Shown piece after piece: positions 940 to 17,583 of a stretch of DNA of 64,000 nt. The DNA is taken from the NCBI GenBank assembly GCA_016192455.1, contig JACPUC010000003.1:1-64000 (forward strand), written 5' to 3'. How positions within the stretch are numbered: the stretch's first letter is position 1; each line of letters begins with the position of its first letter. The DNA is from Candidatus Tectimicrobiota bacterium (lineage in GTDB: Bacteria > JACPUC01). Both the position numbers and the translations under genes were made by a program. The notes beneath the pieces were generated by a model. That model saw only the letters and a program-made list of their open reading frames with translations. It was not told the DNA's origin and did no database searches.

Positions 940-1398
940 TTGCCTTACTGCCATGCCAGCCTGAAGGCTACCAAGCCGCTTCCCCAGGCTTATCCGAAGA
1001 ATATCAAGACGTTGGGAGATCAACTCAGGAAAAAACGCCTCGATCTCGGCCTCCTCCAGAAAGACGTTGCTGAAGTGATAGGGGTCGATGCTACCACAAT
1101 CTACAACTGGGAGAAAGGTCGTGTTGTGCCGGCAAGGCGGTATGTCAAGGAGATAATCAGGTTTTTGGATCAATTGCGGTCGTGTTCCGCAAGTAGAGGA
1201 GGTTCTCAGTTCCCCTCGGGATGTGATTCATCTTCATCAGTTCAGGATGCCTCCCCAATAGGGTGCCGATGTGCGCTGCGCTTGCTGAGCATGCAGACAG
1301 ATTCCCGCCTGCCCGCCAGCCTGCGCCGGACTCTCATTGACATCACCCCTGCCTACCGGCAGACAGGGCTAAGATCCACCGTGGTGTCGGCACCATGA
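940..1398 (+). CDS. XRE-type helix-turn-helix protein
   Basis: Residues about 20-76 form a Cro/C1-type HTH: KTLGDQLRKKRLDLGLLQ, then a second helix with VIGVDATTIYNWEKGR. The N-terminus (MPYCH...PLPQAYPK) matches a small HTH family common in environmental high-GC bacteria, usually about 80-100 residues. Start is TTG at 940, only 8 bases from the left repeat. After residue 77 the tail is low-complexity and unlike the family, so the C-terminus may be a frameshifted extension. Its position at the island edge fits an island-borne regulator; DNA target unknown. Confidence 0.6.
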   Translation: MPYCHASLKATKPLPQAYPKNIKTLGDQLRKKRLDLGLLQKDVAEVIGVDATTIYNWEKGRVVPARRYVKEIIRFLDQLRSCSASRGGSQFPSGCDSSSSVQDASPIGCRCALRLLSMQTDSRLPASLRRTLIDITPAYRQTGLRSTVVSAP

Positions 1399-1530
1399 CG
1401 GACGTCCTCAACTCCTTCTGTCTGCGCATCGACGACGGAGCAATCGAAGACATGAACAATAAGGCCAGAGTGATTGGCCACCGCTGCTAGGGGTTCCGCA
1501 CCCGTCAGCCGTGCTGGCAAAGGCAGGCCG
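1399..1530 (+). pseudogene. ISL3-like transposase C-terminal remnant
   Basis: The frame reads GAIEDMNNKARVIGHRC, then an in-frame TAG, then GFRTR, which matches the C-terminal block of ISL3-family transposases (usually GAIEGMNNKAKVI.HRAYGFRT, with Tyr where the stop is). Nothing upstream belongs to the same transposase, so only the last part survives. It is evidence of past insertion-sequence activity at the left side of the island. Confidence 0.55.
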
Positions 1531-1973
1531 CCCGCACCACCATCACCGTCCCCCAGAACGTTTTCTAGAAACTCCCAGAACCCGCACATGTGCGCAGATT
1601 CTTGTGCGGAGCCGGAAGGATACTTAACGCAGGTAATGATCATGAAAGGGACACAGAAGGCTACAAATGAAGTTTGTCGGCGCCCACCAGCAACGGCAAC
1701 AATCTCGAATGGCATGTCAGGATAGGACAATCCCACATACCTCTCGGCCTCAGTTTATTGCACCGTGTAGACAAGAAGCGAGAAGTTCAGCGTCACTTTA
1801 GTCTCCTGATATACCTCTGGAATATAACGTCCTTGGTTTCCAAGAATAAAGAACTAAGCTTGATCCTGCAAATTGTGAAAAAAGGGTTCCTATGATTTTC
1901 ACGTTATCGCCTTCTTTATTGTCCTCCCTCGCTACAGAAGGCGAGCATTCCTATCCAAAGATGCGACGGCACA
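1531..1973. other. non-coding spacer
   Basis: No frame in this AT-rich stretch resembles a known family, and none has a persuasive ribosome binding site. It probably consists of debris following the transposase remnant. Confidence 0.4.
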
Positions 1974-2369
1974 CTATTCCTCCTCCGAACCAACCTCAGC
2001 CTTTCTCGGCCTCCCGCGCCGCTTCGCACCCGGCTTTACCGGCTTTGCGCCAGACTTTGGGAAGGCAAGCGTGCCTTCTGCCTCTACTTTCTTAGGCCTG
2101 CCTCTCCGCTTCCTTGCCTCTTCAAGATAGAAGCTAACCGCGCTTCGCTCACCCCTGAAGGGGAATCGAACGCCCTTGTACAGCGATGCAGCAGCAGCCT
2201 TAAGGGCTTTCTTGACCTTGCCAGGGTCCTCGTCATCATCCAAAGTGATTCTGCCACCCTGATCATTGGCAAGGCCTGCAAGGTAGCCTTTCAGCTCGTC
2301 AACCATCGGCAGAAGTTCGGCAGGAATCTTCGTCTTGAGTTCTGCAAGTGGCACGGGTTCAAATTTCAT
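1974..2369 (-). CDS. AT-hook-like small basic protein
   Basis: A 131-residue protein starting at an ATG preceded by AAAGGAG at a 9-base spacing. Residues 1-85 are acidic/mixed with no family I recognise. The C-terminal third is very basic and has two AT-hook-type motifs, RRGRPKK (about 88-94) and RRGRPRK (about 117-123), which in other proteins grip the minor groove of AT-rich DNA. A nucleoid-binding or silencing role on the AT-rich island is a reasonable inference but not shown. It stands alone between two transposase remnants. Confidence 0.5.
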   Translation of the reverse strand: MKFEPVPLAELKTKIPAELLPMVDELKGYLAGLANDQGGRITLDDDEDPGKVKKALKAAAASLYKGVRFPFRGERSAVSFYLEEARKRRGRPKKVEAEGTLAFPKSGAKPVKPGAKRRGRPRKAEVGSEEE

Positions 2370-2499
2370 GCTGCATCGCTCCTTTCGGACCTGGCGGAAT
2401 GTAAAACTGTCACTGCTCGCGGTAACATAAAGCTATGGGCGCAAGCCCGTCAAGGGAATTTTGACTCTTCCAGTTCGCCGTCGAGCTTGATGTGATGAA

Positions 2500-3100
2500 G
2501 CGGTGGTGTGCCGGATTTGGCTCGCGCCAACTGCGGCGCGCCCGGGCGAGGATTGACGCGGTGGCGGCGGACATGGCGCCCGCCTCCATCAAAGTGGTGC
2601 GGCGGCACCTCCCCGGTGGACCATCGTCTCGAACCACTTCCACCTCCTCGGGCTCGTCAATGCAAAGGTGGCGCTCCTACGCCAGTTGTTGCACCGCGCG
2701 GCGGAGAGGGTGCTCCAAAAACAGGTCCTGAAGGGCAGCCGCTTGTTGCTGGTGAGGAATCCTGAACATCTCGATGCGCGGCGCCATGTGTGGCTGCGGC
2801 TCCACGAGGCCCTGGCGCTCAACCAACCCCCGGCCACGACGTACGACGTGAAGGAGGACCTGCGACAGCTCTGGACGCAGCCGGACAAGGTTACCGCAGC
2901 CCGCCTCCCTGAGGACTGGATTGCTCGCTCCGAGGCCTCAGGCATCCGCATCCTGCAACGGCTGGTCAGAACCCTTGCCACTTACCGCCGGGACATCCTG
3001 GCCGTCTAAGACATCTCCATCTCCACGGGACCACTAGAGGCCGTCAACAAGAGAATCAAGGTGCTCCAGCGCTAGGCCCTCGGCTTCCGCGATTCGGATG
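2500..3100 (+). pseudogene. ISL3-family transposase, multiply broken
   Basis: Pieces of an ISL3-type transposase lie in more than one frame. A block corresponding to DHFHLLGLVNAKVALLRQ spans a frameshift near 2640-2670; a 113-residue open part follows (2668-3009, with QLLHRAAERVLQKQ and LVRTLATYRRDILAV). The C-terminal block DISISTGPLEAVNKRIKVLQR is then preceded and followed by in-frame stops at about 3007 and 3073. Codon use is GC-rich compared with the surrounding island. It is inactive and was probably an IS that inserted and decayed. Confidence 0.75.
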
Positions 3101-3113
3101 AACCTCATAATGT

Positions 3114-3824
3114 TCAGGCAACCCCGAAAGAGTTCCTCAGTTCGCTGGGGCGCGCATCAGATTTGGCAGGTAAACTGAAAATGAAGGTAACTCCGTGTTG
3201 CAAATCTGTTGAGTTGCTTGCAAGGTGATCTCCTGAAAGCACGAAAGGACAGGATATGGTGATCCCGAAATCGTTGTCTTCGTTGTATCTCTGAAAAATT
3301 CTCTCGAGTTCCCGTCGCAGGGTTTCAGGCATATACTGCGTTGTCGTAGCAATTACGGTACTTACATGGTTATTTCTTACTTGGCTCGATATCTGAAGTT
3401 CTCCGCCATCCGGAATCGTTTGAAGAGCAAGGATAAGTAGATTAGTGAGTGCCAAGCGGACTTTCGACGGGTTGCCAATCCCTATCGGTAAATCATTCAA
3501 CGTTAAATTAACCGTGAGCTCTGCCCCGCGTTCTCTTGTCTGCTGAATCAATGGCTTAATAACTTCTAGCACCTCGCCAATTGCCGTATTCAACTCTATC
3601 TCGTCGAGCGAATGAATGTGCTTGGAGAGAGGTTTATCGTGTAAGCTTTCTAAGACCCTCGTAACGTCACCACAGCACTGCATGATCAGAGAAAGCTCCT
3701 CCGCGACCGAGGGTTTGGGGAGCAGGGCAGGGTGGTTTTCCAGTAGCCGCGCACTCCTCAAAATCACTAGATCGAGCATTTGGATAAGCTCTTGATAAAA
3801 CCTTTCTAATGCTGGCGCCGACAT
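3114..3824 (-). CDS. degenerate histidine-kinase-like ATPase protein
   Basis: A 236-residue protein shaped like a histidine kinase core: an N-terminal helical region resembling a DHp two-helix bundle (about 1-85) followed by a HATPase_c-like fold (about 95-225). The key motifs are eroded: the N-box reads NLLILAL without the second Asn, the DxGxG box is absent, and the GLGL box is reduced to DFGI. No clear phospho-acceptor His with flanking E/P is seen. ATG at 3824 follows GGAGGAG, and the gene begins 4 bases after the small membrane frame at 3829-4020. Probably a pseudokinase modulating the adjacent two-component system; a decaying kinase is the alternative. Confidence 0.55.
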   Translation of the reverse strand: MSAPALERFYQELIQMLDLVILRSARLLENHPALLPKPSVAEELSLIMQCCGDVTRVLESLHDKPLSKHIHSLDEIELNTAIGEVLEVIKPLIQQTRERGAELTVNLTLNDLPIGIGNPSKVRLALTNLLILALQTIPDGGELQISSQVRNNHVSTVIATTTQYMPETLRRELERIFQRYNEDNDFGITISCPFVLSGDHLASNSTDLQHGVTFIFSLPAKSDARPSELRNSFGVA

Positions 3825-3828
3825 GTAA

Positions 3829-4020
3829 TCACTCCTCCATAACTATCCAACCATCCCTCGGCTGTGCCCGGGACTGTCCGTGGTCAGCCAGAGTCTCAAA
3901 TCCGAGACGCCGTACATGGTGTTGCGCCACCCAACTGCAAAACATATGCCAGAAATAATCTGCAGCAATAATTATGAGAATCACCAATATCTCACACAAT
4001 ATCAATATGTTATTCAGCAT
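3829..4020 (-). CDS. small membrane protein (uncertain)
   Basis: A 63-residue frame from an ATG at 4020, with one strongly hydrophobic segment (NILILCEILVILIIIAADYF) near its start and a polar tail ending VMEE. Its last codons supply the ribosome binding site of the kinase-like gene 4 bases downstream, an arrangement typical of translational coupling. No strong ribosome binding site of its own is visible, so the start, and the gene itself, are uncertain. No family recognised. Confidence 0.3.
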   Translation of the reverse strand: MLNNILILCEILVILIIIAADYFWHMFCSWVAQHHVRRLGFETLADHGQSRAQPRDGWIVMEE

Positions 4021-4076
4021 GACGCCTTCGTCGAAAGCCCACAATTTTCGATTGCGTCTCCTTTCAAAGACGCATA

Positions 4077-4092
4077 GTATCTTTTTTGATAC
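4077..4092. promoter_or_regulatory. inverted repeat between the divergent kinase genes
   Basis: GTATC and GATAC arms separated by six Ts lie in the divergent intergenic region, about 65 bases before the sensor kinase start. This could be an operator or a short terminator-like hairpin. No binding protein can be assigned. Confidence 0.25.
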
Positions 4093-4155
4093 CCTCATAA
4101 CTGAGTACCTCTCAGGTGCTGGGCGCCACACGCGGGCCTTCATTGGGAAGGGGCT

Positions 4156-5856
4156 ATGCCAATGAGTACTAATGCACAGTGTTTAGTGAGTATAAGAACT
4201 AAAATGCTACGTACTGTCATCCCACTCGTGGCCGTGCCGATCCTCCTCCTAGGGCTGGGATGGTTCGCCACTTCCAAGCTTGAAGAATCAACAAAAAATG
4301 AGCGATTCTTTCAGCAGCGTTCTCAGGATCTGATCGCTATTTCTGAAATTCCTTCTATCCAGAACTTTTTTATTAACTTAGGTTACGGACCAGAGTTTCT
4401 CCCAGAGGCGGATCGTTTTCGCAGAGAAATAGAACGCTATAATGAGAGATTTTTTGTGCGAAACCAGCTTTTCAAGGGAACCCTTTATAAGGACATAAGC
4501 CTCATTGTGCTTATAAGAGACTCCAACGGTATGATTGTGCAATGGAAAGAGGCGCTTCGGTCGACGGCTCAAGAACTTTCTGCTAATCCTACGGCAATTA
4601 TTCCATCGAACACGTACTTGCAATCCGCCCTTCAAAGCGGACCAGGAAAGGTTTCATTCAGCGCCCTGGCCCCAATCATGCACGCCGTAATTCCGATCTA
4701 CAGAGACGAAAACTTTGATGGCCTGAACTCGCCTGCGGAATTAAAAGGGATACTAACGAGCAGCTTTACTTATCCCATGGCTGAATTTCAGCATATTAGG
4801 AAAATGGCATCTTTGACAATTGTATCTATCCTCTTCGCAAGCCTGCTCATAGCGGTGATTATTGTGAGCTTCGTCATCGGCAAAATTACTGAACCCATCA
4901 ATCATCTTGCTGAGGCAACCCAAAGAATTGCGAACGGTCAACTCTCTCTGACGCTTGACGTCAAGACCAATGACGAAATTGGAGCATTGGCTCACGATTT
5001 TAGCAAGATGACCCTTGAACTCAGCCGTTCGATTACGGCGAAAGAGCACTATGCGGCGGAGCTTCAAGCACTGAACACTGAATTAGATATACACGTCCAC
5101 CAACGAACCGAAGAACTCCGTGAAGCAAATAAGAAGCTTCAACTTGCCAACAGGGAGCTTGAAGAAGCTGATCGGATGAAATCAGAATTTCTCGCCAACG
5201 TTTCTCATGAGATTCGTACCCCACTCACCATTATTCGATCTTCGGTATATAACCTTCTCTTAGGTATTGGCGGACCTCCTTCTGAGAAGCAGCAGAAATA
5301 CTTGAAGACGGTGGAGAATAATATACATCGGCTCACGAGTTTTGTTAACGATTTACTAGATTTAGAGCGAATCCGTGCAGGCTTTGTACAGTTCACGCTT
5401 CGCCCTGTCCTGACCTGCAATCTTGTTGAAGTAGTCTTGGACAATCTCGTCGCACAGGCGGCAGAAAAAAATATTACGCTGAACTATGAACGAACTAATC
5501 CGCCCATAGTTGCTTATGCTGACCGGGATCAGACAATTCAAGTACTGACAAATCTTGTCGAAAATGCTATCAAGTTTACCCCCCAAAATGGCAGCATTGT
5601 ACTGAAGACGTATTACGAAAATGGGTCGTGTGTATTAATGGTACAGGATAGTGGAGAAGGAATTCCAGAGCGCGATCTGCCGTTCATCTTTGATCGGTTT
5701 TATCGAGTACAACGTGGGACTGCCGCCAAGGGGAGCGGGCTTGGGCTTTCTATTTGCAAAAGGCTAGTTGAACTTCAAGGAGGCCAGATTCAGGTACAAA
5801 GCAGTCCAGGAGCTGGAACGACGTTTTTTGTTACCTTCGCATCCTACACGCAATAA
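4156..5856 (+). CDS. membrane sensor histidine kinase (HAMP, HisKA, HATPase)
   Basis: 566 residues. Membrane segment 1 is at about 15-36, an extracytoplasmic sensing region of about 175 residues follows, then membrane segment 2 (about 215-240), HAMP (KITEPINHLAEATQRIANGQL), and a coiled coil. The HisKA block FLANVSHEIRTPLTII has the phospho-acceptor at His351. The ATPase has an intact N-box (NLVENAIKF), G1 (DSGEGIP) and G2 (GSGLGLSI). GGAAGGGG precedes the start; ATG 4162 is an equally good start. The response regulator follows at 5894, so the two form a two-component pair. They stand directly before the sigma-54 promoter of the peptide locus, which suggests they sense the trigger for it. The signal is unknown. 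Confidence 0.88.
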   Translation: MPMSTNAQCLVSIRTKMLRTVIPLVAVPILLLGLGWFATSKLEESTKNERFFQQRSQDLIAISEIPSIQNFFINLGYGPEFLPEADRFRREIERYNERFFVRNQLFKGTLYKDISLIVLIRDSNGMIVQWKEALRSTAQELSANPTAIIPSNTYLQSALQSGPGKVSFSALAPIMHAVIPIYRDENFDGLNSPAELKGILTSSFTYPMAEFQHIRKMASLTIVSILFASLLIAVIIVSFVIGKITEPINHLAEATQRIANGQLSLTLDVKTNDEIGALAHDFSKMTLELSRSITAKEHYAAELQALNTELDIHVHQRTEELREANKKLQLANRELEEADRMKSEFLANVSHEIRTPLTIIRSSVYNLLLGIGGPPSEKQQKYLKTVENNIHRLTSFVNDLLDLERIRAGFVQFTLRPVLTCNLVEVVLDNLVAQAAEKNITLNYERTNPPIVAYADRDQTIQVLTNLVENAIKFTPQNGSIVLKTYYENGSCVLMVQDSGEGIPERDLPFIFDRFYRVQRGTAAKGSGLGLSICKRLVELQGGQIQVQSSPGAGTTFFVTFASYTQ

Positions 5857-5893
5857 GAGTAATCTGCCGCAGCCCAAGAAGGAGGAATGTGGT

Positions 5894-7279
5894 ATGGCAA
5901 AGTATGAAGCAAAAATCCTTATCGCTGATGATGAAGAGGAAATCGTCGATGTCCTGCGCGATATGCTCGAAGCACTTCATTATGAAGTTATTGTAGCTGT
6001 TGATGGATTTCAAGCGCTTGCGCTGATTCGCGAGGAAGAACCTGTTGTCGTGCTGCTGGATTTGAAGCTTCCAAAGTTAGATGGGCTGGAGGTCCTACGC
6101 AGGCTTGCAGAATTGGCAGTAGAAACCACGGTGATTATGCTCACGGCATATGGTACGGTCGAAAACGCCGTAAGGGCAATGAAGATAGGCGCCTATGACT
6201 TCATAATTAAACCTTACAACCCTGAACAGTTGCAGCTGGTTATTGAAAAGGCAGTCGAGCGAGATCGTTTGCGAAGGCAAAACACCTTCTTAAATGAGTT
6301 GGTCAATACCAGGTATAGTCTGCTTATTGGAGGGAATAGGGCCTTCAGAGATGCGTTAGATGAAGCACGTGTGTCCGCAGAAACGGACACGAACATTTTG
6401 CTCGTTGGCGAGACAGGAACAGGGAAGGAAATATTTGCCAGAGCCATACACCGTTGGAGTCGTCGTGCACGTGAGGCATTTGTTCCGATAAATTGCGCAG
6501 CACTCTCAGAGGAACTTCTCCTGAGTGAATTATTTGGGCACGAGAAAGGTGCGTTTACGAGTGCCCATCAAAGAAAACTTGGTAAGTTGGAAATTGCGCA
6601 TAAGGGTACAGTATTTTTGGATGAAATTGGTGATATTGATTTATCAATTCAAGCAAAGTTGTTGCGGTTTTTGCAGGAATATGAATTTGAACGTCTTGGA
6701 GGTAATAAGCAAATCAAGGTTGATATCCGTGTAATAGCCGCCACAAATAAGGATTTGCGGCAGGCTATAAAGAATGGAACTTTTCGGGACGATCTCTACT
6801 TTCGGCTCAATGTCGTTAGCATTATGTTGCCGCCATTGAGAAAGCGACTAGATGATATTCGACTGCTGGCGGACTATTTTCTCCAAAACTGTAATTATTC
6901 AATGAAAAAAAGTGTAAAGGGGATTACCGATGAGGCCTTTGAAGTACTCCAAAACTATACCTGGCCAGGCAATGTTCGGGAACTGCAAAATGTCATTGAG
7001 CGGGCAGTGGTATTCTGCCGCTCCGATGGTATCCATCCCCAGGACATTCTTCTGCAACCCCTTGATGGGCAAATTCTTGCTGGGAGCACTACCACTGCCT
7101 ATCACGACTGTGTCCGGGAATTCAAGCGGCGTCTTATTTATGAAGTACTTCAACAATCCTCCGGAAGCCCAACAAAGGCGGCGCGGACGCTCAAATTACG
7201 AAGAACCTATTTGGCAAGGTTGATCAAACAATTCGACGTTAAATTAACCCCAGCAGGTAGCAGCGACCGGCATGTCTGA
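5894..7279 (+). CDS. NtrC-type sigma-54-dependent response regulator
   Basis: 461 residues from the ATG after AGGAGG. The receiver domain has Asp12/Asp13 and phospho-acceptor Asp56 (VLLDLKLPKLDG). The sigma-54 AAA+ domain has Walker A GETGTGKE, the sigma-54 contact loop written GAFTSA instead of the usual GAFTGA, Walker B VFLDEIGDI, and WPGNVRELQN. A Fis-type HTH lies at the C-terminus (AARTLKLRRTYLARLI). It is the cognate partner of the upstream kinase. A good -24/-12 promoter lies 227 bases beyond its stop, the natural target. The Ser in the contact loop is a known natural variant whose effect here is unknown. Confidence 0.92.
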   Translation: MAKYEAKILIADDEEEIVDVLRDMLEALHYEVIVAVDGFQALALIREEEPVVVLLDLKLPKLDGLEVLRRLAELAVETTVIMLTAYGTVENAVRAMKIGAYDFIIKPYNPEQLQLVIEKAVERDRLRRQNTFLNELVNTRYSLLIGGNRAFRDALDEARVSAETDTNILLVGETGTGKEIFARAIHRWSRRAREAFVPINCAALSEELLLSELFGHEKGAFTSAHQRKLGKLEIAHKGTVFLDEIGDIDLSIQAKLLRFLQEYEFERLGGNKQIKVDIRVIAATNKDLRQAIKNGTFRDDLYFRLNVVSIMLPPLRKRLDDIRLLADYFLQNCNYSMKKSVKGITDEAFEVLQNYTWPGNVRELQNVIERAVVFCRSDGIHPQDILLQPLDGQILAGSTTTAYHDCVREFKRRLIYEVLQQSSGSPTKAARTLKLRRTYLARLIKQFDVKLTPAGSSDRHV

Positions 7280-7385
7280 GCCACAGATAAGCCAAGAAGC
7301 TTCCACTTTCGGAGACCCCGGGTCCCTTTTTCGGTACTTCCTCTAACCCACGAGGAGTAGGAGCGTTCACGGTTTTCATGCGGGT

Positions 7386-7406
7386 TGCACGTCTGCACAG
7401 CTGCAC
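7386..7406. promoter_or_regulatory. three TGCAC repeats, 8-bp period (candidate activator site)
   Basis: TGCAC occurs at 7386, 7394 and 7402, an exact 8-base period, about 100-120 bases upstream of the sigma-54 promoter. That is the usual distance for an NtrC-type enhancer. It is not dyad-symmetric as most NtrC sites are, so the assignment is tentative. Confidence 0.3.
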
Positions 7407-7505
7407 ATGTCGAGGTTTGGCCTTGTTCTTGCTCTTTACCCTGCGCATAGCGCTAACTCCTGTTGAAAAAAACATTTAGAGAAAGTCTTTGCCCGCCTCA
7501 GATTC

Positions 7506-7522
7506 CTGGCATTCGACTTGCT
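7506..7522 (+). promoter_or_regulatory. sigma-54 promoter (-24/-12)
   Basis: The sequence CTGGCATTCGACTTGCT matches the consensus (YTGGCAC-N5-TTGCW) closely: GG at 7508-7509 and GC at 7520-7521 with the obligatory 10-base gap, TGGCA intact, TTGCT intact. Transcription would begin near 7533, 27 bases before the GTG of the acetyltransferase gene. A sigma-54 activator gene ends 227 bases upstream. This is the strongest regulatory signal in the island. Confidence 0.82.
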
Positions 7523-7559
7523 TAGTCAGCGATTGTTGCCTTCCGGCCAGGAGTTCACA

Positions 7560-8096
7560 GTGGGCGGTATAAGTCTATTACATCTACATACAAGTACGCG
7601 TGTTCGGACGGTTGAAATAGACGATTATTACTTTATACTCTCCAGCGCCAGCAGGTGGTGGGGAGAACGAGGGCCAGCGATCTTTCCGAGATTCTTTGTC
7701 ACGCACTTCGCTGATACGTGTTTCGTAGCTGAAGGAGCAGAGACCATTGTCGGGTTTCTCTTTTCCTTTCTTTCACAGAAGTACCAGGATGAAGCTTACA
7801 TTCAGGGGGTGGTGGTCGATCCGCAGCACCGCCGCTGCGGCATCGCCTCTCTCCTCTACAAGAGCTTTTTTTCCAACATGATTACGCGAGGGGTCAGGCG
7901 CGTGACAGGCATCCTTTCCCCTGAGAATACTGAGGCGCTCGCGTTCCAAATTTCACAGGGTTTTCGTATCGCTTCCCCTATCCAGTGGGGACAAACACCA
8001 ATCATCGTCAATGGCCTTCCTGCCTTTCCTGATTACCTCGGGGCAGGAAGAAATAAGTTACTCCTTATCAAGACTCTAAAGGAGTCCGGAGCGTAA
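7560..8096 (+). CDS. GNAT-family N-acetyltransferase
   Basis: 178 residues from a GTG with AGGAG 6 bases upstream; a TTG at 7518 would add 14 residues but lies inside the sigma-54 promoter, so it is rejected. The core shows the GNAT acetyl-CoA loop: a beta strand YIQGVVVDPQHRRCGIASLLY (Q/RxxGxA type, read here as RRCGIA) followed by helix and FQISQGFR. It is the first gene of the sigma-54-driven operon, 4 bases before the glycosyltransferase gene and upstream of the precursor. It may acylate the peptide product, a sugar on it, or confer self-immunity; the sequence does not say which. Confidence 0.8.
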   Translation: MGGISLLHLHTSTRVRTVEIDDYYFILSSASRWWGERGPAIFPRFFVTHFADTCFVAEGAETIVGFLFSFLSQKYQDEAYIQGVVVDPQHRRCGIASLLYKSFFSNMITRGVRRVTGILSPENTEALAFQISQGFRIASPIQWGQTPIIVNGLPAFPDYLGAGRNKLLLIKTLKESGA

Positions 8097-8100
8097 GCGT

Positions 8101-9315
8101 ATGAAAATCTGCCTCATCAGCAAGTATCCTCCCATCGAGGGTGGTGTGGCAGCAAAAAGTTACTGGCTCGCAAAGGCACTAGGAGCACGCGGACATCAAG
8201 TGCACGTTGTAACGAACGCTGACGAAGTGGAGGACTCCTATAGGGAGGAAATTCCCGAAGAAGAGAGGGGTCTGCTCGAACCGCAAAACGTTCGCCGTTG
8301 GAGCACTTCGCCTTCGATGAGAAAGCGTTTTATCCCGCAGTACAATCCACACATTGCCAAACTCGCAAATCTCGCGCTTGCAGTGGTGAGAGAAGTTGAT
8401 GTAGACCTTGTGTACTCACATTATCTCCTTCCGTACGGTGTAGCTGCGCTTTTGGTCAAGCAGTTGGGGAAACTGCCTCTGATCGTAAGACATGCCGGCT
8501 CAGATATCACGTCCCTATATCGCGCTCCTTTTTTGCATGAGATCTTGCGTGAAGTCCTCGCAGGCGCAGACGTAGTGCTCGGTACACAAAGGACAAAAGC
8601 TATCCTTAAAGGAAGCGGGATCAACCCAGAAAAGGTGGCCGTAATCAAACAGGCAGTCAATCTACGAGAGTTTCATCCTGACAATCCGGCTTATGATTTC
8701 CGACCGTATGGTATTCCCCACACTGCTGAGTACCCCGTCATCACCTATATCGGAAAGGTTTCAGCGTTGAAGAACCCCACTGCCTTGTTACGCGCTGCAG
8801 CGCGCCTAAAGGATCTCCAATTTTCCTTAGCGTTCGTAGTAGGACGGGGAACGACGATTGAGCAGCTTAAAGGTTTGGCAAAAGAATTGGGAATTGATCA
8901 AAAATGCGTCTTTCTACCCTTTGTCCCCCCTTGGAGCATGTCGCGGATCATGACTGCCTCAACGTGCATCGTAAAACCGGAAAGTGACGAAGAACCGTAC
9001 CTGCCGAGAGGTACCCATTATCCAATCGTATCTCTCGAGGCGATGGCTTGTGCATGCTGCACGATTATCGGTGAAAAAGTAAAAGGGAAGGGTATATACA
9101 GATTCTTTCAGGATGGCGTGCATACCCTCGCAGTGAATCCTTCCAATCCAGAATCATTTGCAGAAAAGCTGGCTTTTATAATTCAATACCCCCAATTGGC
9201 AAAAAAAATCGGCGCAGCAGCTCGGGCGCTCCTGGAACAGCATGACGAGTGGGACGACGCAATCCAAATAATCGAGTCCGTGTTTCTGCGCTGTGTAGAA
9301 ACACATCACGGCTAA
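8101..9315 (+). CDS. GT4-type glycosyltransferase
   Basis: 404 residues with the GT-B layout of family 4: N-terminal MKICLISKYPPIEGGVA and a Rossmann half, then the C-terminal nucleotide-sugar half with YIGKVSALKNP (about 218-228), a sugar-donor region ESDEEPYLPRG, and SLEAMAC near residue 310. It follows the acetyltransferase by 4 bases and is 25 bases before the precursor gene, so the three are co-transcribed. In a RiPP locus a glycosyltransferase suggests sugar attachment to the peptide (as in glycocins, though those use other GT families). Acceptor not predictable. Confidence 0.85.
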   Translation: MKICLISKYPPIEGGVAAKSYWLAKALGARGHQVHVVTNADEVEDSYREEIPEEERGLLEPQNVRRWSTSPSMRKRFIPQYNPHIAKLANLALAVVREVDVDLVYSHYLLPYGVAALLVKQLGKLPLIVRHAGSDITSLYRAPFLHEILREVLAGADVVLGTQRTKAILKGSGINPEKVAVIKQAVNLREFHPDNPAYDFRPYGIPHTAEYPVITYIGKVSALKNPTALLRAAARLKDLQFSLAFVVGRGTTIEQLKGLAKELGIDQKCVFLPFVPPWSMSRIMTASTCIVKPESDEEPYLPRGTHYPIVSLEAMACACCTIIGEKVKGKGIYRFFQDGVHTLAVNPSNPESFAEKLAFIIQYPQLAKKIGAAARALLEQHDEWDDAIQIIESVFLRCVETHHG

Positions 9316-9340
9316 CCCCAGTAGGAGAGGAGGTTGATTG

Positions 9341-9532
9341 ATGGTCAGCACGAGAACCATGTTGGCGTCGGACGTTGCTCAGCTTCTTGAGGTGCGAACC
9401 GCCCGCATCTCAGCAGCTGTCGGGACAAGCATTCCCGGCGGTAACCTGAATCCCGAGTTCGAAGAGGTTTCCCTCTGGGAACCCGCAGATGGATTCTGTG
9501 GTTGCGGTTGCGGGTGTGGGTGCGGTGCCTAA
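9341..9532 (+). CDS. RiPP precursor peptide with (Cys-Gly)5 core
   Basis: 63 residues from an ATG with AGGAGG at a 7-base spacing, the best ribosome binding site in the island. Residues 1-50 are a Cys-free leader (with an acidic stretch PEFEEVSLWEPAD at about 38-50). The C-terminus reads GFCGCGCGCGCGA: Cys at 53, 55, 57, 59 and 61, alternating with Gly. A short leader plus repetitive Cys core next to DUF692, radical SAM and exporter genes is the classic layout of a ribosomal peptide that is modified on its Cys residues. The core resembles Cys-Gly-rich precursors described for thio(seleno)oxazole-type rSAM systems; that comparison is from memory. Its stop overlaps the convergent SBP gene by 4 bases. 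Confidence 0.85.
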   Translation: MVSTRTMLASDVAQLLEVRTARISAAVGTSIPGGNLNPEFEEVSLWEPADGFCGCGCGCGCGA

Positions 9533-11160
9533 CGCGCAGCACCGGGTGTCGGTGCGATGCGCACACTTCTCAGAAAGGTGCGCTGGTCCTCTTCTGGTCC
9601 CAGCGCACCAACCCTCTTATTCCTCACCAGGATAAACGGGGAATCATACAGAAAAAGGCAGCAGAGATTGTCGTGGAGCATCTTTTCTAATCTCTGTAGG
9701 AGAACCTTCTGGGTATGAATATCTTGTTCGAGGCTGACCCGCTCCAGCACTTCATCAAAAAGATTATCTTTACGTGACCACCTGAAGATACCATCCTTTG
9801 AGAAGAAGCTGGAAAAAAGGCCAAACGAATCAAATTGGGGGAAAATCGAGGCAATCAATATGTCCCAATCTTGTTGCTGAAGCGCCTCCTTGCTGTATCG
9901 CATGACGTTGATCAGGGGGAAAAAGGCTGACGGATGGAGAGCACTGAAGCTCATGGAAATGCCGAAGGGCTTCAATTGAGCGCGAATAATAAGAGCTAGC
10001 TTTCCCAGGAAATCTGGAACAAGGAGCTTGATGTGAACCTCCGTTCGCTCCTTTTCCATAAAATTTCTCAAGATTCGAGCTCCTTCCGTTGGGTCAAACG
10101 TATAAGGTTCGAGGTCGGGGTTAGAACCAAACATTGAGGGAGGAAGCAGTCCGGCGATAACCCGCCCATTGCCTCCAAGGAAATGATCAATGATTTCGTC
10201 TCTGTTAATTAATAAGTTTAGAGCACGGCGTAAGGGCTTCTGCAGCCAGAGAGAGTTATGTTTCCGTTGGTTAAATACAGCGATCGTCAAGGGCCCAGGG
10301 AGCTTTGAGATTTCGATGTTCGGGTGTGCCACATCGATGTCGGTGAGTGAGTAGCGTGCAACGGTCAAATCAAGTTGACCGTTTTTTACGGCCTCTATTG
10401 CCCATTGGGGATTCGCAGGAGCCGGCACGAGAATGATGCTTGAGATCTTCGGGAAGCGCTTGTCCCAATAGTAGGGGTTGGCCTTGAGCACGATCTTTGC
10501 TGAGGTATGAAAGGTTGTCGAGTGTCCGGAATGAAGAATAAAGGGGCCGGTGCCATAGGGTCCCGGCTCCTTGAGAATGGCGATGGGGGGCTCGGCGTAC
10601 TTGTGTAGGTAGCTGCTTGAGGCAAGAGGAAAAAGGGACAGGCTCAACATAGGAAGCCCTGGCTTATGTGGATAGATAAACCTAATGGTGAAGGGGGAGA
10701 TGACCTCCATCTTCGTGTTGTTAGGGAAAGCCCTGGTCCTTCCTCGTGCTGGTTGGTAGGATTTGTAAACCTCAAAATTCTGTCGCACGACCTCGGCATC
10801 AAATGGCGTACCATCGTGAAAGCGCACACCCCTTCGCAGGTGGAGTTCAAGCGTTCGGACATTGCTCCAGCGCCAGTCCGTCGCCAGGACTCCCTTCGGT
10901 TCGCCATTCAGAACTTCTATCAGTGGCTCGAAGACCAAATCGTGGACATGTGTAAATGGCCGAATATGCCACCCAAAGGTAAGCTGAAAATCTGAGGACG
11001 AAACTACTACCTTTGGATACATAGTGATGAGGCAAAAAATGAAGAGACATGCAAGACCCCTCCCCCAGCTACCGGCCGTCGGTGTCGGCCTCGGATATCG
11101 CCCTGCGCTACACAGAGAGATAGTATCACATTTGCGCGAAATCACCTGTCTTGAAATCAT
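9529..11160 (-). CDS. family 5 extracellular solute-binding protein (peptide-type), orphan
   Basis: Up to 543 residues. After a hydrophobic export segment (LACLFIFCLI, about 36-45) comes a full SBP_bac_5 fold: VFEPLIEVLNGE, LRRGVRFHDGTPFDAEVV, GPYGTGPF, LRRALNLLINRDEII. These proteins deliver oligopeptides or nickel to ABC importers, but no permease or importer ATPase gene is near. ATG 11160 gives a 122-base head-to-head overlap with the DUF692 gene, so the true start may lie further in. An orphan periplasmic binder beside a RiPP operon suggests capture of product or precursor, or a sensing role. Confidence 0.8.
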   Translation of the reverse strand: MISRQVISRKCDTISLCSAGRYPRPTPTAGSWGRGLACLFIFCLITMYPKVVVSSSDFQLTFGWHIRPFTHVHDLVFEPLIEVLNGEPKGVLATDWRWSNVRTLELHLRRGVRFHDGTPFDAEVVRQNFEVYKSYQPARGRTRAFPNNTKMEVISPFTIRFIYPHKPGLPMLSLSLFPLASSSYLHKYAEPPIAILKEPGPYGTGPFILHSGHSTTFHTSAKIVLKANPYYWDKRFPKISSIILVPAPANPQWAIEAVKNGQLDLTVARYSLTDIDVAHPNIEISKLPGPLTIAVFNQRKHNSLWLQKPLRRALNLLINRDEIIDHFLGGNGRVIAGLLPPSMFGSNPDLEPYTFDPTEGARILRNFMEKERTEVHIKLLVPDFLGKLALIIRAQLKPFGISMSFSALHPSAFFPLINVMRYSKEALQQQDWDILIASIFPQFDSFGLFSSFFSKDGIFRWSRKDNLFDEVLERVSLEQDIHTQKVLLQRLEKMLHDNLCCLFLYDSPFILVRNKRVGALGPEEDQRTFLRSVRIAPTPGAAR

Positions 11161-11959
11161 TATCGACCATTTCCTTGATATGACCCCAGAAAAAGAGGCA
11201 CAGTTTCATGACCTCGCCAGTAATGTCTGTCTCCTCTCCCATGGCATTGGTATGTCCTTGGGAACGGCACTTCCGGTAGAAAGTGCGTATGTCAATAAAG
11301 TTAAGCGAACGCTAGACATCGCGCGCTCCCCCTGGTTCAGTGAACATGCAGCGTTTACGAAAGTACCAGGAATTGACCTTGGGCAGTTGATGCCACTGCC
11401 CTTCACTGAGGAAGCCGTTGATGCGATCACGCAAAATATAGGAAAACTGAAAAACAAAATCAAGCAGCCACTTCTCTTGGAAAACATAGCCTACTATCTC
11501 GCACACCCCGCTGGGGAAATGACGGAAGCGGAGTTCCTCACGCGCATATTGCACAAAGCTAATGTCTACTTGCTCTTGGACATCAATAATGCCTATACCA
11601 ACTCGGTCAATCACAACTACGACCCATATGAGTTTATTCTCTCGCTGCCTCTCGACAGAGTTGTCCAAATTCACCTCGCTGGAGGTGAATGGAAGGGACA
11701 ATACCTTATCGACTCTCATCGGAGGTCGATCTCACGTGAGGTTTGGAGGCTCTTCGATTTTGTCGTCCCGCGTTGTGCGGTGAAGGGCGTTATTGTAGAA
11801 CGCGATGGTCATTACCCGCCATTTTCAGAACTTCTCGAAGAGGTGCGCACGGCGAGGTCCACATTGAGAAAATACGGAATCTTCGTTCGCAGTCTTCGGA
11901 GGAGGGTAACAAGTGTTCCTGGCAGAACAACAAATGCTGCTCGCCCGAGTTCTTACTGA
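11039..11959 (+). CDS. DUF692 multinuclear iron oxidase (MbnB/TglH family)
   Basis: 306 residues from an ATG preceded by GATGAGG. It has the family's TIM-barrel landmarks and likely metal ligands in order: LLSHGIGMSLG, WFSEHAAF, LLLENIAYY, LLLDINNAY, VNHNYDPYEF, VQIHLAGGE, IDSHRRSI and the Glu-Asp of VERDGHYPPF. Members such as MbnB (methanobactin) and TglH act on Cys of ribosomal peptides using iron and O2, making oxazolone/thioamide or excising carbon. The five-Cys precursor encoded at 9341 is the obvious substrate. The partner gene overlaps its 3' end by 47 bases, indicating translational coupling. Confidence 0.9.
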   Translation: MKRHARPLPQLPAVGVGLGYRPALHREIVSHLREITCLEIIIDHFLDMTPEKEAQFHDLASNVCLLSHGIGMSLGTALPVESAYVNKVKRTLDIARSPWFSEHAAFTKVPGIDLGQLMPLPFTEEAVDAITQNIGKLKNKIKQPLLLENIAYYLAHPAGEMTEAEFLTRILHKANVYLLLDINNAYTNSVNHNYDPYEFILSLPLDRVVQIHLAGGEWKGQYLIDSHRRSISREVWRLFDFVVPRCAVKGVIVERDGHYPPFSELLEEVRTARSTLRKYGIFVRSLRRRVTSVPGRTTNAARPSSY

Positions 11960-12761
11960 TGAAGTTGTGCGGCAGGCGATTGCTGGCAGTAATGATGTGG
12001 AGGGATCACTCCGTGAGTTTCCTGACGAGGCTCGTGCCTACCTGCGCGCGCTCGATAGCAGCCGTTTAACCCTCTGTGCCGACCTCATCAAGCAAAAGCG
12101 CGAAGCGAAGATTCGTCAGATGCTTCCTTTAACTATTGGTTTGCTGGGCACGGACGCGGAAGGATTGTTTGCCTCTTTTTTTCCTATGACTCCACCAACG
12201 ACAATCAGTTTTCTTGAGGAAGCGATTGCGTTTTACCATTTTACTTGCTCTCCAAAGTTCGAGACCAGGAATGGCATCCAACTGGTAAGGGAGGTAGGCC
12301 GCTGGGAATTGTTGTGCCATGAAATTTCCCAGGAAACAAAAACCAAGATCTGTCTCTTGTCGTGCTGCACGCAGCATGCGCAACCCCGTGGCCGGATTGA
12401 TGCGAGCACGATTCTACAGAATTGCGCACATGCCAGATGGGAATCGTTTACCTATGAGATACACACTATTGCCAAAAATTACAATGCGAACAATTGCGTG
12501 AAAGCGCCGCGGAAGGATCCTCAGACTTATCTCTTTTACAAGATATCAGGAGTGGAGCAAATACACATTAGCAAAATCAATGAGGTAACAAGGTTATTCC
12601 TCGACTGCTGTGTCGGCGGAAGTCACTTTCGCAAGATAGAGATGGTTTTGCAGGATCGACTAGGAATGAATACCACAGAGAAGAGGAAGGCATTTCGATT
12701 AGCGTTGCATGAGCTTGCCGAACGCCTCTATATGAAGCGCATCATAAGCAGAGTAAACTGA
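11913..12761 (+). CDS. DUF692 partner protein (MbnC/TglI-like role)
   Basis: 282 residues from a GTG preceded by GGAGGAGGG at a 6-base spacing, overlapping the DUF692 gene by 47 bases. The N-terminus (LAEQQMLLARVLTDEVVRQA ... FPDEARAYLRALDSSRL) matches the helical domain typical of proteins encoded next to DUF692 enzymes, which bind the precursor leader and complete the enzyme. The C-terminal half contains scattered Cys but no motif I know. Its place and coupling argue for a heterodimeric modification enzyme with the upstream product. Exact family not certain. Confidence 0.65.
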   Translation: MFLAEQQMLLARVLTDEVVRQAIAGSNDVEGSLREFPDEARAYLRALDSSRLTLCADLIKQKREAKIRQMLPLTIGLLGTDAEGLFASFFPMTPPTTISFLEEAIAFYHFTCSPKFETRNGIQLVREVGRWELLCHEISQETKTKICLLSCCTQHAQPRGRIDASTILQNCAHARWESFTYEIHTIAKNYNANNCVKAPRKDPQTYLFYKISGVEQIHISKINEVTRLFLDCCVGGSHFRKIEMVLQDRLGMNTTEKRKAFRLALHELAERLYMKRIISRVN

Positions 12762-12763
12762 CA

Positions 12764-14644
12764 ATGTTTCCTCAGGAAATCTCTAACATAGGACGTATTA
12801 ATTTTGCCGGAGCAACGGCGCATCGGGTAACTAATTGGCCGTTTCGACGGATTTTCTCATATTTTTCGAGGTTTAAGAGAGAACTTGTCTTCATCCTTTT
12901 AAGCATTGTACTTGCAGCGGTTGCGCGCACGCTAGTTCCGTTAATTCTGCGCAACATTATTGACCATCAGATAGTTGCGTATGAACCATATCGACTCGCG
13001 CTAACTGTATTATTACTCATCAGTCTCACCCTTGGTGCGGCGCTCGTTGGAATTGTCGAGAATCATGTCAACACATCCGTAACACAGCATGTCATCTTGA
13101 ATTTAAGACAGGAATTATATGAGAGATTGCAGGAGAGCTCTTTGCAAAAGCTTACCAATACCGCAACGGGAGATCTGCTGTCGCGCTGTACGAACGACCT
13201 GACAGGGGTGCAGGAAGTATTGGCGCGTTCATTTGCCCTCAGTACGGCGAATCTCGTGACCGTCCTTGCGACATGCGTCGTTATGTTTTACCTTGACGCG
13301 TGACTTGCGACTTTTACGCTTGCGATTCTCCCCCTCTTTGTCCTCCCGGTTCGGCGCATTGGAAAATTACGTCAAACCGTGAAACATGCTGTGCAAGAAA
13401 GATTAAGCCTTTTGACTTCGCTCTTGGACGAAGCTACTCGGGTTCAAACCGTAATCCTAACTCGGTCATTTAATTTGACAAAACAGCGCACGAAGCACTA
13501 TCGAGAAATAACAGATGAGGTAAGAAAGCTTGAATGTCGGAACCATTTCATTGGAAGATGTTTTCTTCTCCTTCTATCAACAGCCTCGCCAGTTGGGGTT
13601 GCGCTACTGTTTTGGTACGGCATCCCAAAAGTAGCACATGGTGATCTCACCCTAGGCACGTTGATAGCTTTCAGTGCTTACCTGGGAAGGATTTATGCTC
13701 CGGTGAGCCAATTACTTAACGTCCAGATCGATTTTCTTGCCTCCATTGCGTTGTTCCAAAGAATATTTGAAGTCTTTGATCATTATGGCAAACCGAATCG
13801 CCGGGTAAGGGAGAAGAGAATTGTCGAATTTACGAAGGGATCAATAGCGGTAAGAAATCTCTCATTTACGTACGATGCCCAATGTTGGGGCATCAAAGAC
13901 GCTTGTTTTGACATCAACCAGGGGGAGATTGTAGCTCTTGTTGGTCCGTCTGGAGCGGGAAAGACTACCTTGGCATACCTCCTTGCGGCCCTGTATGAGC
14001 CGACCCTCGGCAGTATTTCTATAGATGGCTATAATGTTTTGGATCTTGATGAAAAAAGTCTGCGCCGGTGCGTCGCACTTGTGACAGAAGATAATTGCTT
14101 GCTGGATGCGACGATAAGAGATAATCTTCTACTTGGCAATGAATTGGCCCGCGAGGATGAAATTCTGAAGGCTTGCAAAGCGGTGGGCATACATGATTAT
14201 ATCACCTCACTTTCTAAGGGATACGAGAGTTGGTTACACCAGGGTGGTGCCCAGTTGTCCGCAGGACAGAAAAGGAGGGTGATGCTCGCGAGGGCAATGA
14301 TTAAGAATCCGCTCATTCTTATTCTTGATGAAGTTACTTCTTCCCTTGACCCGATGGCTCAGGATTCCATCAACAATGTTATCAAAGCATTGTTTGCTCA
14401 GCGAAGCGGTCTTATTATAGGTCATCATCTCCCAACAATATTGCTCGCAGATAGAATTCTCGTCATCGAGAACGGAAGAATTGTTCAGCAAGGCGTCCAC
14501 GAAAAACTTGTAAGAGAGGGCGGCCTCTATGCGCGTTTATTTTCCTCATATCCATATAATGGCAGGGATAATAGTATGGAAATTGTGCTCCAGAATTCCA
14601 GGGTAAATACTGCAGATCATAAAGAATACATTCAGGAAAGATAA
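12764..14644 (+). pseudogene. ABC exporter (permease-ATPase), interrupted by one in-frame TGA
   Basis: The frame from ATG 12764 runs to 14644 with a single TGA at 13301-13303. Before it lie membrane helices and the start of the ABC transporter membrane domain; after it, the rest and an ATPase with GPSGAGKTT, LSAGQKRRVMLARAM, LILDEVTSSLD and the switch His (IIGHHLPT). Homologues normally read DWRLA where this reads DA-stop-LA, so the stop replaces Arg, a single CGA-to-TGA change. There is no C39 peptidase domain. It begins 2 bases after the partner gene and would export the modified peptide. Either a real nonsense mutation or a sequencing error; an internal start at 13379 could make only a half protein. 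Confidence 0.8.
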
Positions 14645-14817
14645 CCGAGAGTTGAAGCTTCAAGCATTGCAATACATTCTTTTTATACCTGGTATGAGTG
14701 TTCACGCTGTCTGAGACATACTGACTTGGAAAGTATCGTATTTAATCTGCCCTAGACAGCCTTCACAAAAGAGTGGGGGAAGCGTGGACTTTGAGCTGCT
14801 CAGGATGGAGTATTATT

Positions 14818-16068
14818 ATGAGTATCACAAAACGTCCTTACGAAATTTCAGCAGCAGTGCAGTCTGTCTGCGACCGACTAAATAGACTTTATGACGAGGG
14901 TGCGAAATTATATTTTAATACTATTCGCAGAAAACTTGTGCCTAAACCATCACTACACATTTCCGTCACCAATAGGTGTAATCTGTCTTGCACTTACTGT
15001 TACGACAAGATGAGCCAACCTCCTTTTGTCAAGCGCCGCGATATGAGTACGGATGTTGCGACGAGAATATTCAAACAATATCCTGACCCATCTTATGTAT
15101 TTGTACTGGGAGGAGAACCCTTTTTAAATCCTCACGCTGTTGAAGTTCTGCTCGATCATTGTCCCAACAGAATGGTAATCTCTTCGAACGGGCAAGTGCT
15201 CAATGGCCATGTGGAGAGAATTCTCAAGAAGATTATGCGTCGGAACGAAGAAGGACGTGGGACATTACTCCAGATTTCCTGTGAGCTCGGAGGGGTGAGC
15301 TGCGAGCGAAATACAAGAAATGCTGAAGAAATTCTGCGCTACTTTTCTCATGTATGTGGTAGATTCATGAAAGTAAAATATACCCTGACAGCCCCAGACC
15401 TTATCCATATAGATGCAATAGCCCGTTGGTACTGGGACCGAAATATCCTTGTGCAATTTGACTACGTTGATGGCGGCTACGAGAAGGGAGAAGCAATTGA
15501 TCTCTCTGAGACCAACTGGAAAAGGGTGTTTGCGTTTATTCTTAGCGTGCTGCACGAGAGCTTCGAGGAGTGGGCGCAAGGTAACTCCGATGAATGGTTA
15601 ATTCTTCGCGCCAAAACTCTGGTGCACTATGTTTTTCCGCTGACGGTCATGCAGATCAAACATAAGCATCCGCTCTGGTCAATGTGCGGCGTGTTTGGTA
15701 ATTCTGTCTACATTGGCCCTGGGGGTGAGCTCTTCCCATGCCATCGTTGGAAAGCTAGTGTGGAATCCTACGGTTCTTTAGGAGAGCCATGTGAGAGTCG
15801 CATGTTAGCGTTTCATACCGAATCCTGGCCTTCTCTTCAACGTTACTGTGAAGAGTGTGTGTGGCGGGGAAGTTGTGGCGGTGTGTGTCCAGCGGTAACT
15901 TGCACATATGGCGGATTGAGCCTTATTGGACGGTGTAAATTTATGGGAGCGTTACGGGATGCGGTGTGGTCATTTCTATTGGATAAGACAATTGTGTGTC
16001 ATCCACAAATTGATCAATATCTAGACCTCATAAGAGAACTTTCGCCCTTCTACAAGGCTTTAATATAG
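14818..16068 (+). CDS. radical SAM/SPASM peptide-modifying enzyme
   Basis: 416 residues from the ATG preceded by AGGATGGAG. The radical SAM cluster motif CNLSCTYCY has its cysteines at 54, 58 and 61; FVLGGEPFLNP is the GGE motif that binds SAM. The C-terminus is a SPASM domain binding auxiliary clusters, with Cys in CGVFGN, FPCHRW, CEECVWRGSCGGVCP and GRCKF. SPASM enzymes of this size typically install thioether, C-C or related links, or alter side chains, on ribosomal peptides. It is the last gene of the island, 173 bases after the exporter gene, and has no PqqD-like N-terminal leader-binding domain that I can see. Confidence 0.9.
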   Translation: MSITKRPYEISAAVQSVCDRLNRLYDEGAKLYFNTIRRKLVPKPSLHISVTNRCNLSCTYCYDKMSQPPFVKRRDMSTDVATRIFKQYPDPSYVFVLGGEPFLNPHAVEVLLDHCPNRMVISSNGQVLNGHVERILKKIMRRNEEGRGTLLQISCELGGVSCERNTRNAEEILRYFSHVCGRFMKVKYTLTAPDLIHIDAIARWYWDRNILVQFDYVDGGYEKGEAIDLSETNWKRVFAFILSVLHESFEEWAQGNSDEWLILRAKTLVHYVFPLTVMQIKHKHPLWSMCGVFGNSVYIGPGGELFPCHRWKASVESYGSLGEPCESRMLAFHTESWPSLQRYCEECVWRGSCGGVCPAVTCTYGGLSLIGRCKFMGALRDAVWSFLLDKTIVCHPQIDQYLDLIRELSPFYKALI

Positions 16069-16210
16069 CCAGACGAAGGCAGTCTTTTCTATGTCATGTG
16101 TAACGATGTTGTATGAGAATAATACTTTTTCGCCAGCACTTCTTTCAACCCCATTCGTTCATAGTCCTGGTATTTAAAATGTTCACCGCCGTGGGTGCGG
16201 CGCGACAGGT

Positions 16211-17583
16211 TCAGTAGCTCAAGGTGCGGTCGAGGGTGCGGTACATGATGGCTTCGCCGAGGTGGGTTGCCGTGAGGCGCTCCTCGCCCGCCAGGTCGGC
16301 GATGGTGCGGGAGACCTTGAGGATGCGGTCGTGGGCGCGCGCCGACAGGCCGAGCTGGTTGATCGCCGCGTCGAGGAGGCGCTGCGACGGCTCGTCGAGC
16401 TGGCAGTGGCGCCGCAGGTGTTTCGAGGTCATGTGGGCGTTGCAGTAGAGGGAGTCCTTGGCGAAGCGGGCAAGCTGCCGCTGCCGCGCCGCCTCGACGC
16501 GTTCCCGCACGTGAGGTAGCCGCAGGGGCAGGGGTTCATCGCGGCGGTGAGCATGAAGCGCGCCGGGAAGGTGAGGGAGAGCTTCGAGCGGCTGATGGTG
16601 ACCTTGCCATCCTCGAGGGGCTGGCGCAGCACTTCGAGGACGTGGCGGCGGAACTCCGGCAGCTCGTCGAGAAAAAGGACGCCGTTGTGCGCCATGCTCA
16701 CCTCGCCGGGCCGCGGCAGGCTGCCGCCGCCGACCAGGCCGGCATCGCTGATGCTGTGGTGCGGGTTGCGGAAGGGGCGGGCGCCGACCGGCGCCTGCCC
16801 CTGGCCGAGCAGCCCCATGACGCTGTGGACTTTCGTCGTCTCGATGGCCTCCTCGAACGACATGCTCGGCAAGATCGTCGCCAGGCGCCGCGCCAGCATC
16901 GACTTGCCGGCACCGGGCGGGCCGAGCATGAGCATGTTGTGTCCACCCGCCGCCGCCACCTCGAGGGCGCGCTTGACGTGCTGCTGCCCCTTCACCTCGG
17001 CGAGATCGACGCTCTCCTCGGCGGCCTGCCGCAGCACCTCGTCGCGGTCCACCCGGTAGGGGATGATGGTCGCCGCCTGGTTCAGGAAATCCACCGCGTG
17101 GGGGAGGTTCTTCACCGCGTAGACCGGCATCTCCTCGACGACGGCTGCTTCCGCCGCGTTCTCCGCCGGCACGAGGAGTCCCCGGTACCCATGCGCGCGC
17201 GCGTAGACCGCCACCGGCAGGGCGCCCTGGATGGGTTTCACCAGGCCGTCGAGGGAGAGCTCGCCCAGGATGAGGTAATCGCGCAGGCCGTCGCTCTCCA
17301 CCACCCCCAGGGCGGCGAGAAGGCCGACGGCGATGGGCAGGTCGAACGCCGAGCCGCGCTTCTCGACATCGGCCGGGGCGAGGTTGAGGGTGATGTTCTT
17401 GGGCGGGAATTCGAAGCCGCAGTTGCGCACCGCGGCGCGCACGCGTTCCTTGCTCTCTTTGACGGCGGCGTCCGGCAGGCCGACGATGTTGAAGGCCGGC
17501 AGGCCGCGCGCAATGTCCACCTCCACCTCGACGCGGAAGGCCTCGATGCCCACCACCGTGCAGCTATGAACCTTGGCGAGCAT
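16211..17583 (-). pseudogene. comM: comM main part, broken by island and 160-bp deletion
   Basis: From ATG 17583 (MLAKVHSC) the frame is a normal ComM N-terminus, Lon-protease-like domain ([20 protein letters not shown]) and AAA+ domain with Walker A GPPGAGKS and Walker [11 protein letters not shown], up to [10 protein letters not shown] at 16511. Beyond that it meets a second comM 3' end (16211-16510) that lacks the 160 bases corresponding to 752-911, so the frame shifts and stops soon. ComM helps process incoming DNA in transformation; this allele should be inactive unless the island excises. Upstream lie a GC-rich hairpin and the DUF542 gene. Confidence 0.9.
16511..16530. repeat. 20-bp direct repeat, right copy (candidate attR)
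   Basis: Exact copy of 912-931 inside the codons for PCPCGYLT of comM. Recombination between the two copies would remove 15.6 kb and restore a full comM frame. Confidence 0.75.

Follow-up and report, generated by a model that had tools for sequence, protein, structure and literature searches.

Does a peptide pathway carry its own sigma-54 switch, and how much of the pathway would such a switch control? The question is raised by a low-GC island within a 64-kb stretch of DNA from a Candidatus Tectimicrobiota bacterium (called the window below, meaning the whole stretch analysed), for which a preliminary description had proposed a sigma-54 promoter in front of a RiPP operon, with its own NtrC-type system. 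We consider it probable that the promoter at 7506-7522 drives an operon encoding a GNAT acetyltransferase, a glycosyltransferase (GT) and a putative precursor peptide under the island's own kinase/regulator pair, and that a second promoter is controlled likewise.

The promoter element and its use in the genome

The -24/-12 element, CTGGCATTCGACTTGCT, lies on the forward strand at 7506-7522, with GG at 7508-7509 and GC at 7520-7521 separated by 10 bases (GG-N10-GC). Both cores, TGGCA and TTGCW (here TTGCT), are intact as had been described, and the element has the correct direction and stands within 0-300 nt 5' of a gene start. Taking C7521 as -12 places the predicted +1 at 7533, at the distance originally given, 27 nt 5' of the GTG at 7560, which is itself preceded at 6-7 nt by a good Shine-Dalgarno sequence (AGGAG). 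Judged by its sequence, 7506-7522 is a genuine, canonical sigma-54 promoter site, from which transcription would start near 7533.

The pattern TGGCAYN5TTGCW has three exact matches in the window (7507 on the forward strand, 3936 and 23677 on the reverse strand) against 0.14 expected, a number reached by none of 100 shuffles, and two of them fall in the island (940-16200), where 0.045 are expected and none of 3000 dinucleotide shuffles reached two; both island matches sit in gaps 5' of gene starts. Y was picked for the sixth position once the site was known, a choice against which a reversed control pattern guards genome-wide: across the 4.46-Mb genome the pattern has 23 matches and the reversed control 2. 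When two mismatches were allowed in TGGCACN5TTGCT, 23 matches were obtained against 16.9 expected, which is not above chance, so that the evidence rests on the exact core match and on its place. When the first 17 kb were scanned for GG-N10-GC sites, 7506-7522 and 3936-3952 scored highest.

Elsewhere in the genome, exact matches precede two near-identical pilin genes, MotA, a FliR-type export protein, a flagellar rod/hook protein (FlgE/F/G), a sigma-70-family factor and another sigma-54 activator, and one precedes LptC, which is encoded a few kb 5' of rpoN; a few others fall within coding sequence (for example, L041) and look like chance. Since many of the matches precede typical sigma-54 targets, the site at 7507 is one of a set of matches of which most are real. 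The preliminary description had made the promoter dependent on an rpoN gene in the genome; a single one is present, with the N-terminal region, the HTH and the RpoN box (ARRTVTKYRK) intact, and the motif is in genome-wide use. The third match in the window, a perfect sigma-54 consensus (TGGCACGAAACTTGCT, 23677-23692, reverse strand), has its predicted +1 221 nt 5' of a gene whose product carries a GAF domain and begins like a receiver.

The genes behind the promoter

Only three genes lie downstream of the 7507 promoter on its strand: the GNAT acetyltransferase (7560-8096), which starts with the GTG behind AGGAG, a family 4 glycosyltransferase following after a gap of 4 nt (8101-9315), and a 63-aa peptide with a strong Shine-Dalgarno sequence (9341-9532), ending in FCGCGCGCGCGA with five Cys-Gly pairs. 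The peptide has no family match in Pfam and NCBIfam; its neighbours and composition suggest a RiPP precursor. Further along the same strand stand an MNIO enzyme of the MbnB/TglH/ChrH family (DUF692, 11024-11959; PF05114, E=1e-80), a putative HvfC-like MNIO partner (11913-12761; weak match, HvfC 23.5 bits against a cut-off of 142), the reading frame of an ABC exporter (12764-14644) and a radical SAM/SPASM maturase (14773-16068). The locus thereby has the MNIO enzyme of an MNIO RiPP cluster, and its score stays below the BufB equivalog cut-off of a bufferin cluster (224 vs 310 bits). The ABC frame is interrupted by an in-frame TGA (13301-13303), either a nonsense mutation or an assembly error.

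This block, which is not under the 7507 promoter, is separated from the precursor by an oppositely oriented gene for a family 5 solute-binding protein (9529-11160, reverse strand; nearest to NikA, far below cut-off), and the GG-N10-GC scan of the first 17 kb revealed no sigma-54 site comparable to 7507 in front of it. The sigma-54 promoter described before a RiPP operon therefore holds for the genes from GNAT to precursor and not for maturation and export, and control of RiPP production as a whole was an overstatement; the better wording is the precursor operon of a putative RiPP locus. The solute-binding protein, which has no adjoining permease, is a possible link to metal or peptide uptake.

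The sensor kinase/regulator pair

Directly upstream of the promoter, and on the same strand, lie the genes of a sensor histidine kinase (4156-5856), recognised by its HAMP, HisKA and HATPase_c domain matches, and of an NtrC-type response regulator (5888-7279) with a receiver, an AAA+ sigma-54 interaction domain and a weak Fis-type HTH (HTH_8, E=0.0049, below cut-off). As had been stated, with the distance given as 227 bases, the latter is the only sigma-54 activator gene in the window: it ends at 7279, 226-227 bases upstream of the element, and is the sole PF00158 gene in the 64 kb. On contig C1, PF00158 matches occur at 6323 and 161056 only, and the genome holds twelve strong PF00158 genes, that is, 11 besides the island's regulator. 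Over its entire length the regulator can be aligned with NtrC1 and full-length 4L4U, and it combines its receiver, in which the phosphoacceptor Asp is kept, with an AAA+ domain retaining Walker A (GETGTGKE) and Walker B (FLDEIGD), as in NtrC-type bacterial enhancer-binding proteins.

The loop contacting sigma-54 reads GAFTSA and not the consensus GAFTGA, so that the claim of a dedicated NtrC-type system stands with regard to the adjacent pair and has to be qualified with regard to the loop. Among the other 11 strong activators, ten have GAFTGA, GSFTGA or GAFTDA and one has GVATGV. Our literature search found no paper on a GAFTSA loop. NorR carrying Ser at the second Gly of GAFTGA is, however, active and partly deregulated (PMC2941729), and for Desulfovibrio several loops departing from the consensus are taken to be functional (PMC4641369); by analogy, the GAFTSA regulator can probably work. 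The GVATGV loop, found in activator L012 (G000:C14:35421), is a variant also reported in Desulfovibrio vulgaris, for a regulator of type III secretion (PMC4641369).

Three TGCAC words with an 8-base period at 7386-7406 on the forward strand, centred at about -137 from the predicted start and equalled in 7 of 3000 shuffles, make a weak candidate for the enhancer, and no inverted repeat at 7280-7500 was better than those in shuffled sequence. Considering its position, the adjacent pair is likely the controller of the 7507 promoter. In such a circuit, the sensor kinase would phosphorylate the regulator, which would bind upstream, possibly at 7386-7406, and loop to the RpoN-RNA polymerase at 7506-7522, opening the promoter so that transcription would start near 7533 and run through the operon (7560-9532).

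A second sigma-54 site and a predicted stem in the read-through RNA

The second -24/-12 element, CTGGCATATGTTTTGCA (3936-3952, reverse strand), has its predicted +1 at 3925, 101 nt 5' of the ATG of a gene divergent from that of the sensor kinase, and the sensor/activator pair (4156-7279) is thus flanked by two outward-pointing sigma-54 promoters, which we infer to be parts of one circuit. The product of the gene (3114-3824, reverse strand) has 236 aa, and its C-terminal half, which weakly matches HPTransfase and HATPase_c, resembles a degenerate histidine kinase/phosphotransferase; the predicted structure of the protein, at pLDDT 44, is of low confidence and not usable. Placed under the same control, this kinase-like gene would probably act as a feedback or relay element. 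With a sigma-54 switch beside a sensor-activator pair and a second copy before a signalling gene, production of the peptide probably requires activation of the sensor. An operator common to the 7507 and 3936 promoters was not found. A palindrome at about -139 of the second promoter (TGCGTCT-N8-AGACGCA) was rejected as an operator, since shuffling equalled it 13 times in 100 and the sequence 5' of the first promoter lacks it.

RNA reading through from upstream is predicted to fold into a stem (7489-7567, forward strand; z -2.5), in which 7489-7496 pairs with 7560-7567 and hides the GNAT start codon, while 7501-7510 pairs with 7546-7555 and hides the Shine-Dalgarno sequence. Both 5' arms precede the position at which sigma-54 is predicted to start transcription, the arm at 7501-7510 overlapping the -24 box, and opening the Shine-Dalgarno/start region would cost 14.9 kcal/mol in read-through RNA vs 6.9 in RNA starting at 7533. 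The stem was noticed after the fact, and the higher cost was reached by 18 of 1000 upstream shuffles, so the suggestion that it could prevent expression of the operon except from sigma-54-started transcripts has modest support. A wider reading, in which the locus is a portable, self-contained sigma-54 RiPP regulon (sensor, GAFTSA activator and two promoters) whose stem limits translation to sigma-54-started transcripts and silences read-through, is speculative, and we put it forward tentatively.

The island

From about 3 to 16 kb the GC content is 43-51%, vs about 67% in the adjoining host sequence. On either side of the island stands a copy of a 300-nt repeat from the 3' part of a yifB/comM-like gene (451-750 and 16210-16509, 94% identical); compared with the left copy, the right one has lost about 160 bp. 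Partial genes also flank the island. The island looks horizontally acquired, together with its regulators.

Alternative explanations

That the match is accidental, and that the operon owes its transcription to a sigma-70-type promoter or to polymerase continuing out of the kinase/regulator operon, we regard as very unlikely. The control pattern does imply that about 2 of the 23 genome matches arise by chance, and other exact matches lie inside coding sequence, but the island shuffles never produced two matches and both island sites fall in upstream gaps; among the sigma-70-like sites listed, none falls between 7280 and 7559, such sites being at chance level in the region, and the predicted stem would fold away the Shine-Dalgarno sequence and start codon of any read-through RNA. 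It is likewise unlikely that the sigma-54 promoter is real and served by another activator of the genome, with the adjacent pair controlling other genes or having decayed. Any of the other 11 activators could act, the two promoters share no common operator and the GAFTSA loop of the adjacent regulator would fit decay; the catalytic motifs of this regulator are nevertheless intact, Ser at this loop position is functional in NorR (PMC2941729), and the pair lies directly upstream in the same low-GC island with sigma-54 sites on both its flanks.

A doubtful, though somewhat more serious, alternative is that the whole circuit is decaying and the promoter is an intact relic, the peptide being no longer made or exported. 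The in-frame TGA in the ABC exporter, the repeat and partial genes flanking the island and the off-consensus activator loop would agree with this; on the other hand, the frames of kinase, regulator, GNAT, GT, precursor, MNIO and radical SAM are all open, and the TGA may stem from the assembly. Control of the precursor operon by the island's own sensor and activator is the reading that we prefer.

Relation to known systems

Direct control of natural-product genes by sigma-54 and an enhancer-binding protein has been published for Myxococcus xanthus (PMC7910581). There, the targets are polyketide and non-ribosomal peptide genes, whereas the target in the present locus is a putative RiPP precursor operon, next to which the activator pair is encoded; RiPP terms were not found in the text of that paper. 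Nor did the open-access literature, judged by the titles listed, yield a sigma-54-controlled RiPP, lanthipeptide or bacteriocin locus. The remark that such control is rarely reported is accordingly borne out for RiPPs in the open-access literature and too broad for natural products in general, for which the myxobacterial work is a precedent. Taking this precedent and the lack of a sigma-54 RiPP locus in our search together, the promoter is canonical, and the target and the wiring are new.

Bufferin-type MNIO clusters resemble the locus in combining an MNIO, an HvfC/DUF2063-type partner (putative in the present locus) and a Cys-containing peptide, according to the parts of a cluster survey considered here (PMC12452194), which mention sigma-70-family factors and anti-sigma genes and not sigma-54. 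In these parts, the bufferin 1 clusters are described with such factors and anti-sigma genes and with Sec-signal precursors; the present locus differs in its sigma-54/NtrC circuit, its leader-type precursor with (Cys-Gly)5, and its radical SAM, GT and GNAT proteins. The PrsK/PrsR-RpoN control of PEP-CTERM genes (PMC1569441, PMC9850573) likewise links sigma-54-dependent genes to a kinase/NtrC-type pair dedicated to them, and the second-best NCBIfam match of our regulator is PEP_resp_reg (423 bits, below the cut-off of 502.6), but no PEP-CTERM signal is seen in the precursor. NtrC1/AtoC-type response regulators share the full-length receiver-AAA+ alignment; the island's regulator is set apart from them by its GAFTSA loop and weak HTH, and it reaches no equivalog cut-off.

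If the proposed circuit is true, RiPP precursors would join the sigma-54 targets, known for polyketide and non-ribosomal peptide genes, and a peptide pathway on an island of foreign composition would be seen to bring along a sigma-54 activator pair of its own, needing only the RpoN of the host. It would also offer a practical handle, as silent clusters of this kind could be turned on via the activator.

Search for related clusters

An orthologous GNAT/GT/MNIO cluster was not found among the genomes sampled (192 for the GT, 386 for the radical SAM), which included no other member of the host phylum. Five loci were obtained on aligning the GT against genome contigs, and neither GNAT nor MNIO adjoins any of them; a search of viral contigs for MNIO and GT found nothing, and one of plasmids for GT, radical SAM, MNIO and GNAT found only unrelated neighbourhoods where these were inspected. 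The GT subfamily recurs in KSB1, Bacteroidales and Deltaproteobacteria (L024, L026, L028, L030) beside prenyltransferase-like repeat and asparagine-synthetase-like proteins, in two of these loci also beside radical SAM proteins, and these loci probably represent another peptide pathway.
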